From Methanobacteriota archaeon (GTDB lineage: Archaea > Halobacteriota > Methanomicrobia > Methanomicrobiales > Methanoculleaceae): 64,000 nucleotides of DNA. This document shows positions 6,048 through 14,982 of the stretch, piece after piece. The stretch lies in assembly GCA_016841955.1 (NCBI GenBank), contig JAENYE010000003.1:188497-252496 (forward strand), in the 5' to 3' direction. Within the stretch, counting starts at the first letter, position 1, and the number at the start of each line of letters is the position of its first letter. The notes under the pieces were generated by a model that worked only from the letters and a program-made list of their open reading frames with translations, ran no database searches and was not told where the DNA came from. Both the position numbers and the translations under genes were made by a program.

Positions 6048-6995
6048 TTATTCGGTATCGTCCGATCGGCCCGATCGCTCCCCCCCGTTCCCGTTTGAAA
6101 GCGGGAAATACTGCTGGTAGACGCGTTTGCGCTCATCGATGTCGGTATGCAGGTAGATCTCGGTCGTCTTGATGGAGGAATGTCCCAGGTTCTCCTGCAC
6201 GACACGGAGGTTCTTCGACCGGCGGTAGAGCTCGCTCGCGTAGGAATGCCGGATTTTATGCGGCGTAATCCCGGCAGGGGCGTATCGCTTGAAGAGATGC
6301 TGGACGGTTCGCGGGGAGATATGGTTGCCCTGCTGGCCTGAAAAGAGCGGCCCCTCGATTGTATTGCCGATAAACCGGTTAATTCCTTCAAGCGTCTCTT
6401 CGTCGATGAAGACGGTCCGGATCTTGTCGCCTTTTCCCTTCACCCGCATCGTATGCTCCTCGAAATCGATATCCCCGACGTTTATCGCGCAAAGTTCCGA
6501 AACCCGGACGCCGGTGGCGTAGATAAGGCGAACGATCAACCGGTCCCGCTCGTTTTCGATGGTGTTGATCAGGCGGATCACCTGGCTGTGTTTGAGGTAT
6601 TTCAGTTCCTGATTCTTGATCCGGGGCCGCTCCACCCCGAGCATCGGGTCGGCGATCACGACCCCCTGCACGTAGAGGTACCGGTAAAACGAGGAGAGCG
6701 TCGATATCATCCGGTGGAGGGTCTTGGGCTTGTAGTCCTGCCTCTCCGAGAGATAGGAGAAGAAATCGGTGACGAGGGCCGCAGAGACGTTGACATCCGC
6801 ATCCAGCGAAGCGTTCTCGAATGCGGCGTCATCGAACGAGATCGCGTCCGGATCAGAATGCTGCCGGAGCCAGGCGTACCGGGCAAAACGCCGGACGGTC
6901 TGCACGTATTTTTCGATGGTCCGGGGCGAGTAGTTCCGCATTCGGAGGTAGCTGCTGAAGCGATCGAGCCATTCCGAGAAAGGGGCGTTTTCCAT
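6048..6995 (-). CDS. xerA: XerA-type tyrosine recombinase
   Basis: Site-specific recombinase of 315 residues. An N-terminal SAM-like core-binding domain (about 5-110) precedes a catalytic domain with the tyrosine-recombinase set: R164 (ATGVRVSEL), K188/K191 (KGKGDKIR), H246 and R249 (HKIRHSY), H272 (LGHSS) and nucleophile Y281. Length and layout match archaeal XerA, which resolves chromosome dimers at dif, better than virus-type integrases. ATG 6995 is chosen because it begins the conserved N-terminal helix. No phage or plasmid genes flank it. The 1.4 kb upstream has no clear gene and could hold a recombination site, but I could not identify a dif. Confidence 0.85.
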   Translation of the reverse strand: MENAPFSEWLDRFSSYLRMRNYSPRTIEKYVQTVRRFARYAWLRQHSDPDAISFDDAAFENASLDADVNVSAALVTDFFSYLSERQDYKPKTLHRMISTLSSFYRYLYVQGVVIADPMLGVERPRIKNQELKYLKHSQVIRLINTIENERDRLIVRLIYATGVRVSELCAINVGDIDFEEHTMRVKGKGDKIRTVFIDEETLEGINRFIGNTIEGPLFSGQQGNHISPRTVQHLFKRYAPAGITPHKIRHSYASELYRRSKNLRVVQENLGHSSIKTTEIYLHTDIDERKRVYQQYFPLSNGNGGERSGRSDDTE

Positions 6996-8451
6996 CGTAT
7001 AAATAATTGAATAACGGAGCATATCAAAATTGCGGTAAATGCCTATTCCCCGCAATAGATCATATACCCGGAGGACTCCTGCCAGGCCCAACCAAGGCTG
7101 CCAGCGATGATCGCAGGGCTCCACGCCAAAAAACCCGTTACAGGAGGGGGCATATCCCACCCGACCCACCCCCCGCGAGTACAGCGCCCGGAATCCATTG
7201 AAGCCACGATGCGAGCATTATGGGCACGATTTATCAAACTGAACCTGAAAATTGACTCTACCAAATCCATGACGTCAGGCAATTCCCCGATTGCCCGGCG
7301 AATCAGGGTCTGGCCCGCCCTTCGGAGGAAAAAGCAGAGAGACAGGCCAATTTCGTCCCGGACCCCAAAAAGGATATTTCCGGTGATGCAGGAGATATCG
7401 GCGTTAGGAGGTATGGGGCTGCCATCCCGGGTGGACGGGGACAGACCCTGTTGAATACGTCCTCTTCCGAGTATATGAACCCCTTACCGCGCGGGGAGAA
7501 AGTGAACGAGCCGGAAGCACCACCGGTGCCACGCGGCCTGCAGATCCCGCCCACATATAAAGGACTCACACAGATGGCTGCAGACGCCCGATCGGCCCCG
7601 CCAGCAACCATTCCCATAGGAAGACCTGTGATCCCTGCTCAAAAACGCGATATGGAGGTCCCGAATCTCGAACAACCCGCCCGGCAGGGCGTCACGGCCG
7701 CAGCAGGTGCCGGCGCACCAATCCTGTTAAAATGCTTCGCACAACCCCGAACCGGTGCAAGTGCGCCGGATCCCGCAGAAAAACCCATAAGAGACCATAC
7801 ACCCGCGCCCTCATCGACAGCAGGGCAACATCCCGGGGAAACTGCCAGCCGACCACATATGGCGCAACTTTACCCCGATAGGCTGGCGTTTGTGCCCCTT
7901 TCGAAAATCCGTCGCAATTCGACCTTAACCGGTACCGTGCTGCTTCGCACCCCGGTGAGGTCCAGCGCCCGCCCCCCCCGCATCGCCAGGCAAATGCGGC
8001 CCCTCGATATGCGATACCACCACAATATGTCCCGATAGGGGCAGAACCCGATCTAAAGACCCCGATACCCATCCAGAACACGGGAACAAAGAGGCAGGCA
8101 TAAACCACATGTTGCTATACATAACATGGGACACGAGGGCACCACAGGTCCCGCGGGGCCTGACCGCAACCGGACCCCGCGGCGCACCCCATCGCACCTT
8201 CGGGACTCCTGCTCGAAACCCATCGGGTTTCTCGCGCTCCGGCCCTTCGGCTCGTCGCGGCTCGAAGCCTGACGGCTTCTCAAATTCCGGGCTGTCCGTC
8301 GCATCCTACGGACGGTCGTCACTCGCACCTTCGGTGCTCGAACTCCGCTCCTGGCGGAGCATCGTTCCCTCAATCGCCATCCCGGCCGCCCGGGGCACCG
8401 TCGTTCAACCAGCCCTATTGAAATATCAAAACCAACAAGAGGATAGATGAA
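6996..8451. other. 1.4 kb region without a convincing gene
   Basis: No frame here has a recognisable protein signature, and the open frames present (for example 7451-8038 plus, 7303-7617 minus) have shadow-like compositions rich in Arg, Pro and Gly. The first part is lower in GC around 7000-7060. The last part (8190-8365) is a mini-hairpin array listed separately. I see no tRNA or other RNA gene I can name. Confidence 0.5.
8190..8365. repeat. tandem mini-hairpin array (family A), copy 1
   Basis: A run of adjacent short palindromes separated by TCG-like linkers: GAAACCCATCGGGTTTC (8215-8231), GAAGCCTGACGGCTTC (8264-8279), GCACCTTCGGTGC (8325-8337) and GCTCCTGGCGGAGC (8347-8360). The module GCACCTTCGGTGC also occurs at 48467-48479. 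It lies upstream of the gene at 8452. Confidence 0.75.
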
Positions 8452-8997
8452 ATGGAAGAGCCTGACAGCATCAAAGACCCAAACAAGTACCAGAAATTCA
8501 AGAAGGTGGATGGTGCCGCCTACCAGCGGGTCAACCAGTTCCTGCGCAAGCACACCCATATCACCGCCCGCGAGTGGGCGATCGCACGCCTCTGTGCAGA
8601 TTTCAAGACCACCAGCGGTTCGGAGATGACGTTCATCGGTGAAAACCTCCCTGAACTCTGTCCATTCATGGTCGACTCCTACACCCCGCAGGCAGTCAAC
8701 CAGGCGAGGAGCTCGTTCAAGAAGAAGGTGAAGAAGGCAGGAGCCACGTTCTTCTACGGGGCCATGTGCGGCTTTTTTACCGCAGAAGAACTCGATGAGA
8801 TCCTCTTCGAGGCGAGCGAGGTCGCCCGGTTCCTGCTGGAGGTGGAAGGGACGAGCCTGAACCTCGACGACGAGATCGACGTCGAGGACCGGATCACCGA
8901 GGTGATGCGGGGCGTAGCCGAGGCGGCGTCGGTCATCCTGAAGTCCAGGCCCGGCCAGGAGGAAGAGAGCCGGAACGAAGAAGAGGGGGACGCATGA
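8452..8997 (+). CDS. conserved archaeal protein of unknown function (DUF5806-like)
   Basis: Soluble, charged protein of 181 residues with an acidic, Glu-rich C-terminal tail (last 12 residues). The central part (about 60-130) contains conserved-looking helices with F-F-Y-G-A-M-C-G-F-F and E-E-L-D-E-I-L-F-E-A-S. I believe it matches a family found beside mobB in methanogens and haloarchaea, perhaps DUF5806, but I cannot confirm the number. Its stop overlaps the next start by four bases (ATGA), so it is translationally coupled to the MobB-MoaE gene; a role linked to molybdopterin or tungstopterin cofactor is possible but only contextual. Confidence 0.75.
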   Translation: MEEPDSIKDPNKYQKFKKVDGAAYQRVNQFLRKHTHITAREWAIARLCADFKTTSGSEMTFIGENLPELCPFMVDSYTPQAVNQARSSFKKKVKKAGATFFYGAMCGFFTAEELDEILFEASEVARFLLEVEGTSLNLDDEIDVEDRITEVMRGVAEAASVILKSRPGQEEESRNEEEGDA

Positions 8998-9749
8998 AGA
9001 TCGTTCAGGTTGTCGGCCGCTCAAACGCCGGGAAGACCACATTCATAAAGAACCTGATCGGAGCGCTCTCCACACGCGGGACCGTCGGAGCGGTCAAGCA
9101 TCTGGGGCACCACGGCTTTTTGCTCGAGCCCGGAAAAGACACCACCATATACCATGAATCGCATGCTGCTATATCCGGCGGCGTCGACGAAGAGAAGTCG
9201 GTCCTCGTCAGGCGCGAGAACGACCTCGACTCCACCCTGGAGATCCTCTGCAATGCCGGAGTCGAGTACGCCATACTCGAGGGGTTCAAGTCCCGGCCGT
9301 TCCCGAGGGTAGTGATAGGCGACCTAGAAAGCGAGAACGTTGTGCTCCGGGACCCCACCGTCGACGAGACGATCGCCGCACTTGCCCGGTTCGAGGATTA
9401 CTATACCATCGAAGGGTTGGTCCGGGAGTTGAGACGCGAGTGCGGCGTCTCGCATGCCGGGGCCGTCCTCACGTTCAACGGGCTCGTCAGGGAATGGACC
9501 GGCACCGAGCGGACCGAATATCTGGAGTTCGACGAGACCGTCGATGCCCTGACGGAGAGTATCCTGCAGGAGATGGAAGCGGTCCCCGGGATCATCGGTG
9601 CACGGTTCCACCACCGGAAAGGACGGCTCTATGCCGGAGAAGATATAACCTATCTTGCTATACTTGCAGAGCATAGGCAGGAGGCGTTCGCCGCCGCCAG
9701 CAATGCTATCGATCGGCTGAAGCAGGAATTACACGACGTGGAGAAGTGA
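8994..9749 (+). CDS. MobB-MoaE fusion protein (molybdopterin cofactor biosynthesis)
   Basis: Residues 1 to about 125 are a MobB-type GTPase with P-loop GRSNAGKTT (8-16), implicated in the guanine-dinucleotide form of the cofactor. Residues from about 148 are MoaE-like: AGAVLTFNGLVRE, then HRKGRLYAGEDITYLAI and EHRQEAFAAASNAIDRLK, the large-subunit pattern of molybdopterin synthase, which inserts the dithiolene sulphurs. The MoaE part ends early: the usual P-[IF]-W-K-[KR]-E ending is absent. The first catalytic lysine appears as K243; the only other C-terminal lysine is the last residue, K251, spaced 8 rather than 7 away. Start ATG at 8994 overlaps the preceding stop. Confidence 0.88.
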   Translation: MKIVQVVGRSNAGKTTFIKNLIGALSTRGTVGAVKHLGHHGFLLEPGKDTTIYHESHAAISGGVDEEKSVLVRRENDLDSTLEILCNAGVEYAILEGFKSRPFPRVVIGDLESENVVLRDPTVDETIAALARFEDYYTIEGLVRELRRECGVSHAGAVLTFNGLVREWTGTERTEYLEFDETVDALTESILQEMEAVPGIIGARFHHRKGRLYAGEDITYLAILAEHRQEAFAAASNAIDRLKQELHDVEK

Positions 9750-9754
9750 CAGAG

Positions 9755-11125
9755 ATGCGAAACGGCAAACGGATGTTTGGAACGAACGGCGTGCGGGGCG
9801 TGATCGGAGAGATGATGACACCCGGTCTCGTCCTCAAGATCGGCGCCGCGCTCGGATCGATGAGGAAGGGCACCATCGCGGTCGGCAGGGACACACGGAC
9901 GTCCGGCGAAGCCCTCACCCACGCCCTCAAGGCCGGGCTCCTGATGACCGGGTGCGACGTGGTTGACGTGGGCATCCTCCCCACGCCGGCCCTGCAGTAT
10001 ATCATAAAGACCAACCGGTTTGCCGGCGGCGCGATGATCACCGCATCCCATAACCCGCCCGAGTACAACGGCGTGAAGATCATCGAGGCCGACGGCACCG
10101 AGATGTCCGACGACGAGATCATCCGGCTCGAGGACCGGTTCTTTGCAGGTGTGTTCGACGCTGCCCCCTGGGACGGCGTCGGCACGGAGACCGCCGCACC
10201 CGACCGGATCGAGGAGTACATCGAGGCCGTCGTGAGCTACTTCCCGGCGGGCATCGGCGAGGGCATGACCGTCGTCGTCGATCCGGGTTCCGGCCCCGCG
10301 GCGCTCACGACCCCGTGCATCCTCTCAAGGATGGGCTGCCGGGTCCATACCATCAACGCCCGGCTCGACGGCACCTTCCCGGGCCGGATGCCCGAGCCGA
10401 CCCCCGAAGGGCTGCAGCCCCTCTCGGAGATGGTCATCGCCACGGGTGCGGACTTCGGGGTGGCACATGACGGCGATGCCGACCGGGCGGTCTTCGTCGA
10501 TACCAAAGGACGCTATATAGAAGAGAACTACGAGTTCGGCCTGGTCGAGGACTACGTCTGCGGCAGGAACAGCGGCGGGCTCGTCGTCACCCCGGTCGCC
10601 ACATCCCGGCTGATCCGGGATATCGCAGAGAAACACGGCTGCACCGTCGACTATACCCCCGTAGGGAGCATCTATGTCGCAAGGAGGATGATCGAACTGA
10701 TAGGCGAGGGAAAGAAAGTCTCCTTCGGGGGGGAAGGAAACGGCGGCCTGATCTATCCCGACCACCAGTTCTGCCGGGACGGGGGCATGACCGCCGCCAT
10801 GATGGTGGCGGTTCTCGCAAGCCATAACGGCAGAAAACTTTCGGATATCCTCGACGAACTCCCTGCATACCACCTGGTCAAGGAGAAACACCACACTGGT
10901 GACCCGCCCGCGCTGGTCCGCGCCGTCGAAGAGGCATTCTCGGGAGAGACCGTCGAAAAGATCGACGGCATCAAGATCGCCAGGGACGACGTCTGGGCTC
11001 TTGTGCGGGCATCGGGCACGGAACCGATGATCAGAATCATGATCGAGGCAAAGGATCCGGGCGTCGCGGATGCCATGTACCGGGAGATCATGCAGGTTGT
11101 GACGGACGGAACGTCCGGAGCATGA
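9755..11125 (+). CDS. glmM: phosphoglucosamine mutase-type phosphohexomutase
   Basis: Alpha-D-phosphohexomutase of 456 residues, likely converting glucosamine-6-phosphate to glucosamine-1-phosphate for UDP-GlcNAc. It shows MFGTNGVRG at 7-15, the phosphoserine loop TASHNPP (S98), the metal loop DGDADR, the sugar-binding loop GEGNGG and the phosphate-binding RASGTEP near the C-terminus. Phosphomannomutase or phosphoglucomutase activity is equally compatible; the FGTNGVRG start favours GlmM-like archaeal enzymes. I use ATG 9755 because GGAG sits 11 bases before it; GTG at 9746 is in frame but has no room for a ribosome site. The preceding stop (9747-9749) lies just before this ATG. Confidence 0.87.
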   Translation: MRNGKRMFGTNGVRGVIGEMMTPGLVLKIGAALGSMRKGTIAVGRDTRTSGEALTHALKAGLLMTGCDVVDVGILPTPALQYIIKTNRFAGGAMITASHNPPEYNGVKIIEADGTEMSDDEIIRLEDRFFAGVFDAAPWDGVGTETAAPDRIEEYIEAVVSYFPAGIGEGMTVVVDPGSGPAALTTPCILSRMGCRVHTINARLDGTFPGRMPEPTPEGLQPLSEMVIATGADFGVAHDGDADRAVFVDTKGRYIEENYEFGLVEDYVCGRNSGGLVVTPVATSRLIRDIAEKHGCTVDYTPVGSIYVARRMIELIGEGKKVSFGGEGNGGLIYPDHQFCRDGGMTAAMMVAVLASHNGRKLSDILDELPAYHLVKEKHHTGDPPALVRAVEEAFSGETVEKIDGIKIARDDVWALVRASGTEPMIRIMIEAKDPGVADAMYREIMQVVTDGTSGA

Positions 11126-11415: not shown

Positions 11416-14400
11416 ATGGATGGAAAATTACAGATGAAACAGAAGATAAACTCCGCTATCTCTTCTGGCGATCTGCGTGAGCTTGAAAAGGTAGTTTCAG
11501 ACATATCGGAGACCCAGACGCGGAAGGAGAAGAAATCACTCTACGAGCAGATGAACGCCGCCCTGGTTGAAGCGGCGTTCGGCGAAGGCCAGCCCGAACT
11601 CTTAAGCCAGCTCGTCGAACCGACCAAAGAAGAGATATTCGCCCTCGCCAGGCGTGCTGCCGTCAGATATAGTGAGAACAAGGATGAAGCATGGTTCTAC
11701 GCAATATTTACCCTGGTCGACAAACTCGACCGTAAGAGCCACCAGTCCGATATCCTCGCCGGGATCTCCCGTGATCTGGTCCAGGCCGGGGTCGATACCG
11801 GGGACATCCACTATATCGAGAAAGGAGGAGAAGCCTTCGATAAGATCAGCATCCGTAAATACCGCTCAGCAATCCTCTCCGAGATCATCCCGCTCTTCAT
11901 CCGGTACGGTCAAAAACACCAAAACATCGATATCATGCAGTATGCTCTCCAGATGCTCCCCGAGATCGGCGACATATCAAGACAATCGCAACTCCATGCC
12001 GACGTGGCCCGGGCGATCGCCGGTTCCGGCATCGAGTCAGGTGACATCAACCTTGTGATCAGCGGGCTTTCGAGCGCTACCGAGATCAACCAGAAGATCC
12101 GGCGCACCAACTCGATCGCCGACATCGTGGATGCCACCTGGAAATCCTCGTTGAAGAAGGAGATCTCCGACGTCGAGCATATCATAGACTCCCTCCCGGA
12201 TATCCCCGAAGAGCGGCTCACCGAAGTCCTCGCAACCCTGACCGAGCAACTCCTCGACCGCCAGCGGGACAAGAAGCAGATATACACCAAACTGCTCAGG
12301 ATCGACGACGAAAAGGCGTGGGCAGGACAGACCCTCGTCCTTGAACTCCTGAAGAAGGCAGAGCGGAGCGGAGAACGCTGGTTCCTCGAGAAGGCGTTCG
12401 AGTTCAATGCCCGGGGCGTGGGGGAGACCCAGCTCCCCATCGAGGAGATTGTCCTCTCCGGGATTGCAGTCGTCGAGAAGAGCGGCAACCCGACCATCCT
12501 CCTCGACATCACACCACTGATCGACGAGTCCTGCGACGCAGCGAAGGCGGCCCAGCTCTACCGGCAGATCACCGACGCGCTCTCCCGGATGGGCGACTTC
12601 TACCACGCGATCGAGGTCATGAAGAAGGCCAGCGCCAGTACGCAGAGGATCAACGCCCAATTTTTCGATACCAGTGTCCGCCTGATCAAGGAGGGGGTCC
12701 GGCGCGACGAGATCAAACTCGTCCGTGAGAATATCCTCGCCACACTGGATACCGATATTGCCGACTCGCTGGTACACCAGGCGGTGACCGACTTCTGCAA
12801 GGAGTACGACTTTGACGAAGTCATCAGGCACATACCGGCCATAAAGGAACTTGCGGGGTCGCACCACGCACAGGACCCCCTGCTCCTCGAGTGCAACACC
12901 ATCCTGATCGACCGGGGGTTCGTCCGCCAGAAAGACCCGTCGGCTCTCGTGGACCTGGTGAGCCAGATCGGAGAGCAGGCCCTCCGCGAACAGGCAATCT
13001 CGACCATCGCCGTCGAGATGGCACGGATCGGCGTCGCCCGGAAAGATCGGGATCTCCTCCGGCATGCGACCGGACTCACCTGCGAGATCATGGACCAGCG
13101 GGCACGGGCCGAGGCGATGGGGGGCATCGTGGATCAGGCGGCCGTGCTCGCCGTCGAGGACGGCGACCTCGACCTGCTCCACGGGATGCGGGTCCTCTCC
13201 ACATCCCTGCTGGAGCGGGACTACTGCCTCTTTGCGATGGGCAAGGTTATCCACGGCCTGATCATGTACGGGATCGAGCAGCTCTCGCTCCGGGCGCTGG
13301 ATGAGGCGGGCCAGATCCTCAACCAGATCAGCGACCCGTCCCTGCAGCGGCAGCTGGCCGACCCCCTCATCGAGGGCTACGTCCGGGTCGGGAGCCTGCA
13401 GGCGGCAGACCAGCTCTCCCGGGGGAAGGCCCAGATCTTCGAAGGCATGATGGAGCCGTTCGAGATCGCGCTTGCCCTCCTCCAGACCAGCACCCCGCAC
13501 GAGGAGATCTCGATCAAGATAGCAAGCTACGTCGACATCATGCTCGAGTACACGCAGGTCTATGCAAGCCCGATCTTCGCGGTCCCCATGACGCTCTTCT
13601 CCCTGGAGATCGAGGGGGATTACGAGCGGACCGCCATGATCCAGAGGATCCTCACCTTCTTCACCAGCTACACGAAAGAGTTCGACTCGGCCGATCCCTA
13701 TGAAGTGACGGCCTACCTGCTCGAGGGGATCGAGGGAGGAGCGGCGGCACAGCCGGTCCTCGAGTTGATGTACCGCCTCTTCGAGCACACCGGCGACGTC
13801 TATGCGCGCTACTCCGGGATGTACCGGATCGTGAGCGCCTACTCGGTCCTCGGCAACGAAGACCGGGCCGAGACGATCATCCGGAGGCTCCATGAGACCA
13901 TCGGCACCATCTCCGATCCGTCCGTCCGTGCGATCATGCTCTCCGACCTCGCCGGACTCATGGCCGGGATCGACCACAGCGCAGCCAGAGGCTACCTTGC
14001 CGAGGCGCAGGGGACGCTTGAGTTCGTGGGGCAGGAACGGGAGGCATTCGTCAGGAAGAACCTGATCTACGCCGCAAGAAGCCTCAGCACCGTAAGCAAG
14101 CAGGAGAAGGACGTCGACTGGGCGATTGAGCAGGTCGGCAGGATCGAGGACCCGGTCGAGTACGTGGATGCCCTGGCAGCGGTCTTCGACATGGTCAGCG
14201 AGCCTGCACAGAGAAAGGAGATCCTCTCGGCCATGTGCCATACCGTCGTGAGCATCCCCTCTCCCTACATCCGGCTCTCGATGCTCTTTGACGTGGCGCA
14301 GTTCGCCGAGACCTATGGAGATGAAGAGGAGATCGACGAACTGCTGGACGGCATGGAGAGAACCGCCGGCTACGTCCAGATCCCGTTCATCACCGCCATG

Positions 14401-14982
14401 ACGCAGCAGCGGATGGCCCAGATGCTCTTCTCGTTCTACCGGGCGAGCGGGAAGCCGGCCGCCCAGCAGCGGGCTGCCGATATCGTCTCCACAATCGACG
14501 ACGACAGGATCCGGTACAGCCTGATGGTCCAGCTCGAGCAGGCCGTGCCACAGTCATGGAAGAACACGGTCTACGGCAGGATCCTGGATTGCCGGGACAA
14601 GATCCGGAGCGGCGATTATACCACAAAGGACATGGTCACGCTTGATAGGGCGATACGGACGGCACCTGACCGGGCAAAGCGGGCGACTTACTACACCGAA
14701 CTCTACCTCATCGCCAGAAACGCAGGGCAGCACGAGGTCGCGGATAGGATGCTGCTCTGCGCGCTCGAAGAGGCGCGGATCATCAGGCCACTCTCGCGGC
14801 GGGCTTTTGTGCTCGGCGATATGGCGTGCCGGATCTACGCAGAGCGCTACGAAGACCGCTCAAGGGAGGTCCTCGACATGGCCGTGAGCGAGGCCCTCAA
14901 CATCCGCGATTCGACGATCCGGGACGAAGTATACGACGAACTGGATATGTCCCTGCGGATCATCCAGGAGCACTGGCTGTGA
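11416..14982 (+). CDS. large helical-repeat protein of unknown function
   Basis: A soluble, predicted all-helical protein of 1188 residues with no signal peptide or membrane segment. It contains internal repeats: residues 125-144 (GVDTGDIHYIEKGGEAFDKI) align without gaps to 205-224 (GIESGDINLVISGLSSATEI), exactly 80 residues apart. Further units near the middle keep a G-x(3,4)-[GK]-D-x-D-L-L core. This resembles HEAT, ARM or TPR-like scaffolds but I cannot assign a known family. The C-terminus overlaps the acylphosphatase start (GTGA), so the two are co-translated. The minus-strand open frame at 12037-14241 is a shadow. Confidence 0.85.
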   Translation: MDGKLQMKQKINSAISSGDLRELEKVVSDISETQTRKEKKSLYEQMNAALVEAAFGEGQPELLSQLVEPTKEEIFALARRAAVRYSENKDEAWFYAIFTLVDKLDRKSHQSDILAGISRDLVQAGVDTGDIHYIEKGGEAFDKISIRKYRSAILSEIIPLFIRYGQKHQNIDIMQYALQMLPEIGDISRQSQLHADVARAIAGSGIESGDINLVISGLSSATEINQKIRRTNSIADIVDATWKSSLKKEISDVEHIIDSLPDIPEERLTEVLATLTEQLLDRQRDKKQIYTKLLRIDDEKAWAGQTLVLELLKKAERSGERWFLEKAFEFNARGVGETQLPIEEIVLSGIAVVEKSGNPTILLDITPLIDESCDAAKAAQLYRQITDALSRMGDFYHAIEVMKKASASTQRINAQFFDTSVRLIKEGVRRDEIKLVRENILATLDTDIADSLVHQAVTDFCKEYDFDEVIRHIPAIKELAGSHHAQDPLLLECNTILIDRGFVRQKDPSALVDLVSQIGEQALREQAISTIAVEMARIGVARKDRDLLRHATGLTCEIMDQRARAEAMGGIVDQAAVLAVEDGDLDLLHGMRVLSTSLLERDYCLFAMGKVIHGLIMYGIEQLSLRALDEAGQILNQISDPSLQRQLADPLIEGYVRVGSLQAADQLSRGKAQIFEGMMEPFEIALALLQTSTPHEEISIKIASYVDIMLEYTQVYASPIFAVPMTLFSLEIEGDYERTAMIQRILTFFTSYTKEFDSADPYEVTAYLLEGIEGGAAAQPVLELMYRLFEHTGDVYARYSGMYRIVSAYSVLGNEDRAETIIRRLHETIGTISDPSVRAIMLSDLAGLMAGIDHSAARGYLAEAQGTLEFVGQEREAFVRKNLIYAARSLSTVSKQEKDVDWAIEQVGRIEDPVEYVDALAAVFDMVSEPAQRKEILSAMCHTVVSIPSPYIRLSMLFDVAQFAETYGDEEEIDELLDGMERTAGYVQIPFITAMTQQRMAQMLFSFYRASGKPAAQQRAADIVSTIDDDRIRYSLMVQLEQAVPQSWKNTVYGRILDCRDKIRSGDYTTKDMVTLDRAIRTAPDRAKRATYYTELYLIARNAGQHEVADRMLLCALEEARIIRPLSRRAFVLGDMACRIYAERYEDRSREVLDMAVSEALNIRDSTIRDEVYDELDMSLRIIQEHWL

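Follow-up and report, generated by a model that had tools for sequence, protein, structure and literature searches.

The gene of interest encodes a MobB-MoaE fusion whose MoaE half stops short of the C-terminal P-x-W-K-[KR]-E block, and the question raised by this locus is whether such a protein can still act as a MoaE and, if so, with which sulfur source. The gene lies in a 64,000-nucleotide stretch of methanogen DNA (hereafter, the window). On balance, we favor the view that the short fusion is an active MoaE that relies on one lysine and can dispense with MoaD, with sulfide as the probable sulfur source. A survey of the open-licence literature returned no description of a MoaD-less or short-tailed MobB-MoaE, which is not proof of its absence from print.

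A MobB-MoaE fusion with a short ending

As the initial annotation had proposed, a GTPase (MobB) domain and a MoaE domain were found in one frame, both matching above the Pfam cut-offs (Table 1). Reading of the frame to its stop confirmed that the P-x-W-K-[KR]-E block is absent and that K243 is kept. The protein ends in AIDRLKQELHDVEK, in which K243 closes the motif AIDRLK and K251 the motif QELHDVEK before the stop, and a glutamate stands at K243+7, i.e., the second lysine (E. coli K126) is missing. The P-loop residues G8, G13, K14, and T15 were invariant in the A1 set. Against the MobB-MoaE model NF011061 (PRK14493), the protein scored 185.7 bits, under the curated cut-off of 215, and covered profile positions 1-254 of 274; it thus has the MobB-then-MoaE order of that model without its full C-terminal ending. 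An AlphaFold model of the fusion was confident (mean pLDDT of 90.1) except for the last three residues (pLDDT below 50), and the top PDB neighbors of this model in a Foldseek search were MobB and MoaE structures. In the predicted model, a single helix spans residues 228-247, and K243 and H247, both at its end, would be expected to face the same side.

Table 1. Features of the short MobB-MoaE fusion in the window and of the tandem copies in related genomes.
Feature	Coordinates	Strand	Basis
MobB-MoaE fusion with short C-terminus	8994..9749	+	single open frame, 251 aa
MobB domain, residues 3-115	9000..9338	+	PF03205, 65.9 bits vs cut-off 26.6
P-loop GRSNAGKT, residues 8-15, intact	9015..9038	+	sequence
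MoaE domain, residues 150-245	9441..9728	+	PF02391, 71 bits vs gathering cut-off 23.4
R166	9489..9491	+	R in 50/54 non-redundant short forms
K243 (E. coli K119, Haloferax K240)	9720..9722	+	K in 49/54 short forms
H247 (K243+4), clade-specific histidine	9732..9734	+	H in 48/54 short forms
K251, last residue, unconserved	9744..9746	+	K at offset +8 in 25/54 short forms
Tandem MobB-MoaE copies, complementary domain decay	L169 3087-3824 and 5434-6117	+	also L170

The short fusions form a clade of their own

The distribution of the short ending was examined in 41 fusion loci, comprising the window's own locus (L002) and 40 from relatives sampled at a weak MoaE match. Fusion ORFs were accepted at more than 200 bits, which yielded one in 40 of the 41 loci (L055 had no match over 200 bits), and the P-x-W-K-[KR]-E block was missing from all 40 extracted ORFs. 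In a tree of 91 MoaE domains, the 37 short forms made up one group (support 100/99), apart from the canonical MoaE proteins and the long fusions. A search with NF011061 across 146 Halobacteriota genomes gave a fusion over the cut-off in 63, and all 63 matches reached profile position 272-274. Among the matches listed in that search, the intact fusions of Methanomicrobiales ended at position 253-255 and scored under the cut-off. Thirty sequences of the long, haloarchaeal type carried the full ending, in the form P-[ILV]-[FW]-K-[KRH]-E. These results dismissed the idea, raised in the initial annotation, that all archaeal proteins of this kind share the short ending. Judged from sequence, the window fusion belongs to a clade that is specific to Methanomicrobiales and consists of MobB-MoaE fusions with an apparently re-cut MoaE half.

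Two rows that had been entered as short, L072 and L073, fell outside the short clade in the tree and belong to a third, different MoaE-like family. This protein (L072 834-1250, + strand, and L073; one family, genomes G049 and G054) ends in VKEEKIVRKQPLLAA, without the tryptophan, and the gene beside it (L072 230-640) is presumably an IscU-like scaffold, as far as can be told from reading its sequence.

Residue conservation was counted over 54 non-redundant short forms, including a few degenerate ones, together with 23 long-fusion rows and 42 canonical rows. The counts leave out L072 and L073, any row that exceeded 90% identity to one already retained, and matches that stopped short of profile position 240 (cut at contig ends or with the MoaE half lost). 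In addition to the residues of Table 1, the short forms kept F161 as phenylalanine in 50 cases and R228 as arginine in 49, and 45 had a histidine at the equivalent of E. coli H103. The corresponding sites of the E. coli protein are F34, R39 (R166 in the fusion), H103, and R104. Canonical MoaE (PF02391), including the copy in the window genome, shares with the short fusion the MoaE fold and the K119-, R39-, and R104-equivalents. It differs in standing alone beside MoaD and E1 genes and in having K at +7 and W at +6 in 42/42 rows and P at +4 in 39/42, a position at which the long fusions also had P (23/23) and the short forms had H.

Possible dependence of the fusion on MoaD

The strongest of the alternatives, although in our judgment an unlikely one, is that the fusion is the ordinary large subunit of a MoaD-dependent MPT synthase. 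In that case K243 would be enough, the second lysine would be dispensable in archaea, the loss of the tail would be neutral, and the MoaD-less genomes described below would use an unrecognised carrier. This alternative agrees with the data on the Haloferax volcanii MobB-MoaE given in PMC4443979, where K240R fails complementation and K247R and K248R behave like wild type. That protein (NF011061/PRK14493 type) resembles the short fusion in having both domains in the same order and an essential lysine, K240, corresponding to K243; it differs in possessing both K247 and K248 and in using SAMP1, and the short forms make up a separate clade. Against neutral trimming stands the lysine at K243+7, the K126 position, which was kept in 65/65 canonical and long rows, so its loss is not neutral there; it occurred in just 4/54 short forms.

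The gene content of the window genome also fits dependence on MoaD. The search for a second, complete MoaE that the initial annotation had suggested was successful, revealing one at G000:C6:123925-124248 (locus L001) in the gene row E1 - MoaD - MoaE - YcaO, and this finding ruled out the window fusion as the sole MoaE of its own genome. Two Ubl genes over the cut-off and one E1 gene were found in this genome. Across 61 genomes (its own and 60 relatives), a MoaE match was present in 59, many of them with both forms. The gene context of the two forms speaks against the alternative: among 30 canonical moaE loci, 28 had MoaD, 26 had E1, and 21 had YcaO, while none of the three was found in the 41 fusion loci, within the locus stretches examined. 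In the window genome, the YcaO gene (L001 215-1833, - strand, on G000:C6) runs into the final part of the canonical moaE. The occurrence of YcaO in the 21 canonical loci hints that these genes share an operon for a sulfur carrier, which might serve to form thioamides.

The survey was extended to 106 Methanomicrobiales genomes with a completeness of 95% or more, and every one of them contained a MoaE-family gene. The short fusion was the only MoaE in seven of them (G004, G006, G052, G059, G078, G081, and G082). A further candidate, G085, with a single weak PF02391 match, was rejected, as the match was a cut canonical MoaE beside MoaD, and it was not counted. MoaD/ThiS (PF02597) and E1/ThiF (PF00899, E<=1e-10) were each found in 101/106 genomes. 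The five without MoaD/ThiS, even at E<=10, were exactly the five without E1 at E<=1e-10 (G004, G006, G052, G081, and G082), all within the fusion-only set. When the E1 search was relaxed to E<=0.01, the only match among the five was one of 17 bits in G004, and the same match was present in G003 and G024. A thiocarboxylation route is thus not visible in these five genomes, which counts against dependence on MoaD. K243 and H247 were retained in the fusions of all five, and so was MoaC (12/12 genomes examined). Because G082 is a single contig of 2,843,290 bases, the absence of MoaD and E1 there is hardly an assembly gap. The five genomes are spread over three genera; therefore, the losses of MoaD and E1 are probably three rather than five in number. 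The other two fusion-only genomes, G059 and G078, have E1 and Ubl, as the MoaD-dependent alternative would predict; in these two, MoaD may therefore still serve the fusion, and they offer no evidence for MoaD independence. Overall, MoaD was absent from 5/44 genomes with an intact short fusion and present in that of the window. A non-homologous sulfur carrier in the five MoaD-less genomes is possible.

Integrity of the MoaE half

Less probable still is a dead or regulatory MoaE, with MobB as the working half and a MoaE half that only binds the cofactor, another MoaE, or the partner of MobB. The complete second MoaE of the window genome is in keeping with this explanation, as is the wider distribution of the MoaE half. 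The fusion profile was matched to position 247 or beyond in 47/106 genomes, in its MobB part only or with a degenerate remainder in 56, and not at all in three; three of the 47 (G024, G043, and G047) had a full-length match with the catalytic residues lost and were counted as degenerate. The MoaE half was degenerate or absent in 62/106 genomes, each with a canonical MoaE, indicating that the short MoaE can be lost where the canonical one exists. An intact short fusion was present in 7/7 genomes without canonical MoaE and 37/99 with it (Fisher p 0.0016, with kinship ignored; counts compiled by hand from three profile and sequence surveys of the 106 genomes). Since 37 genomes combine an intact fusion with a canonical MoaE, the fusion is not simply a replacement. 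The same surveys bear on the proposal in the initial annotation that another subunit completes the enzyme: the window genome does hold a complete MoaE that might serve, while seven of the 106 near-complete genomes have no other MoaE, so such completion is not generally required. The status of sole MoaE in these seven also weighs against a dead MoaE half, and so does the retention of the catalytic residues in about 90% of the short forms.

The selection acting on the two halves was examined in G081 and G082, in each of which the fusion is present twice, with about 2 kb between the copies, and no MoaD, E1, or other MoaE was found. In G082, the copies adjoin mcrB and a GXGXG-motif protein, which on reading its sequence resembles FwdC. 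Copy A of G082 has lost the P-loop (GDSHPENN) and gives no PF03205 match, but its MoaE is still matched and ends in DRLKAELHNKK; in copy B, MobB is matched and MoaE no longer is. Between G081 and G082, dN/dS was 0.32 for MobB and 0.030 for MoaE in copy A, and 0.036 for MobB and 0.42 for the MoaE remnant in copy B, values that come from one genome pair with unequal dS between segments (0.19 vs 0.71 in copy A). Because of this inequality, dN is the safer contrast between the halves; it was 0.062 (MobB) vs 0.021 (MoaE) in copy A and 0.013 vs 0.048 in copy B. Amino-acid changes numbered 15/120 (MobB) vs 6/121 (MoaE) in copy A (p 0.042) and 3/128 (MobB) vs 10/93 (MoaE remnant) in copy B (p 0.017). 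This reciprocal decay indicated that MobB and MoaE are each selected on their own. The MoaE half was also constrained in the window's own lineage (dN/dS of 0.044 and 0.105 for two pairs). Over the nine pairs other than G081/G082, its dN/dS lay between 0.044 and 0.346, and the high values of close pairs (0.30 for G006/G004 and 0.35 for G003/G015) rested on very few changes. The regulatory role considered in the initial annotation is conceivable yet disfavored, given that K243, R166, R228, and F161 are kept and that MoaE is under strong purifying selection where MobB decays.

The terminal lysine and the end of the frame

A third alternative, which we consider very improbable, is that the terminal lysine K251 stands in for K126 from a shifted position. 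A lysine at K243+8 did occur in 25/54 short forms, distant genera among them. It was missing from the other 29, many of which end before that position, and H247 was far better conserved; the low pLDDT of the last three residues in the model also argues against this reading. The initial annotation had described K251 as one position out of register, which holds with respect to E. coli K126 at +7; however, +8 is also normally a lysine, the second of WKKE, in 38/42 canonical and 21/23 long-fusion rows. Its premise that both lysines matter applies to the E. coli enzyme in vitro, in which K126A is nearly 60-fold slower, as quoted in PMC4443979, which also names K119 and K126, but not to the Haloferax fusion in vivo. 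Since the second lysine is dispensable in Haloferax, the premise is a bacterial one, and no substitute lysine is needed in the fusion. Finally, a sequencing error or frameshift just before 9749 that conceals a normal ending can be set aside, as no P-x-W-K-[KR]-E block was found in the other two frames over 9601-9902, the following gene opens at the stop or directly behind it, and all 40 relatives also lack the block.

A possible carrier-free route to molybdopterin

In the short fusion, K243 and the substrate-side residues are retained in the MoaE half, from which the P-x-W-K-K-E block and the tail are missing and in which a conserved histidine follows K243 by one helical turn. If this fusion is an active MoaE of the kind that we favor, it would convert cyclic pyranopterin monophosphate (cPMP) to MPT through K243 alone, perhaps aided by H247, and would require neither the thiocarboxylate of MoaD nor the E1 that activates MoaD. 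Sulfide, in which the methanogen cell is rich, or some other small donor would supply the sulfur. In the window genome, the fusion would work beside the normal MoaD-MoaE-E1 system, and in the five related genomes it would be what remains. Presumably, the lost block lies on the MoaD side, and its loss would fit a release from MoaD. The enzymatic activity, the MoaD independence, the sulfide donor, and any role of H247 are what we infer for the short fusion. We put forward only tentatively a more specific version, in which the protein is a carrier-free MPT synthase that needs neither MoaD nor E1 to make MPT straight from sulfide and in which H247 has taken the place of the MoaD-side block. In this version, reciprocal decay would have left one of the tandem copies with the function of MobB and the other with that of MoaE.

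A comparable state has been described for Thermococcus kodakarensis, in which mutants without the Ubls had normal MPT in sulfur medium (PMC11323500). Like the proposed state of the five genomes, this is MPT production that does not involve Ubl carriers, under an ample supply of sulfur; in that source, however, they are laboratory mutants, whereas the five Methanomicrobiales are natural genomes without Ubl, E1, or canonical MoaE. Alternatively, any MoaE may be capable of MoaD-independent MPT synthesis inside a sulfidic cell, in which case the short tail would have no bearing on it. Three other methanogens, Methanococcus jannaschii, M. aeolicus, and Methanopyrus kandleri, are reported to lack Ubl proteins (PMC2948915); they resemble the five genomes in this respect but belong to other orders. 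In our control panel, M. jannaschii had a PF02391 match and no PF02597 match at E<=0.01.

The related species with and without MoaD and E1, which have in common a MoaE variant with a single catalytic lysine, amount to natural knock-outs and bear on how Ubl-less methanogens put sulfur into molybdopterin. If the fusion does not require MoaD, the thiocarboxylated carrier of the textbooks would not be a general requirement, and one protein would suffice to test a sulfide route that is simpler and may be older. The G081 and G082 copies show clearly how complementary decay can divide a fused protein in two.

Neighboring genes in the window

The gene following the fusion belongs to the phosphoglucomutase/phosphomannomutase family and starts at or just past the fusion stop. 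Further downstream, positions 11416-14982 (+ strand) hold a 1188-aa ORF of repetitive appearance with no Pfam match above the cut-off. A gene of the tyrosine recombinase/phage-integrase family is located at 6048-7169 (- strand), and a DUF5806 gene at 8452-8997 (+ strand) lies directly upstream of the fusion and overlaps its start.
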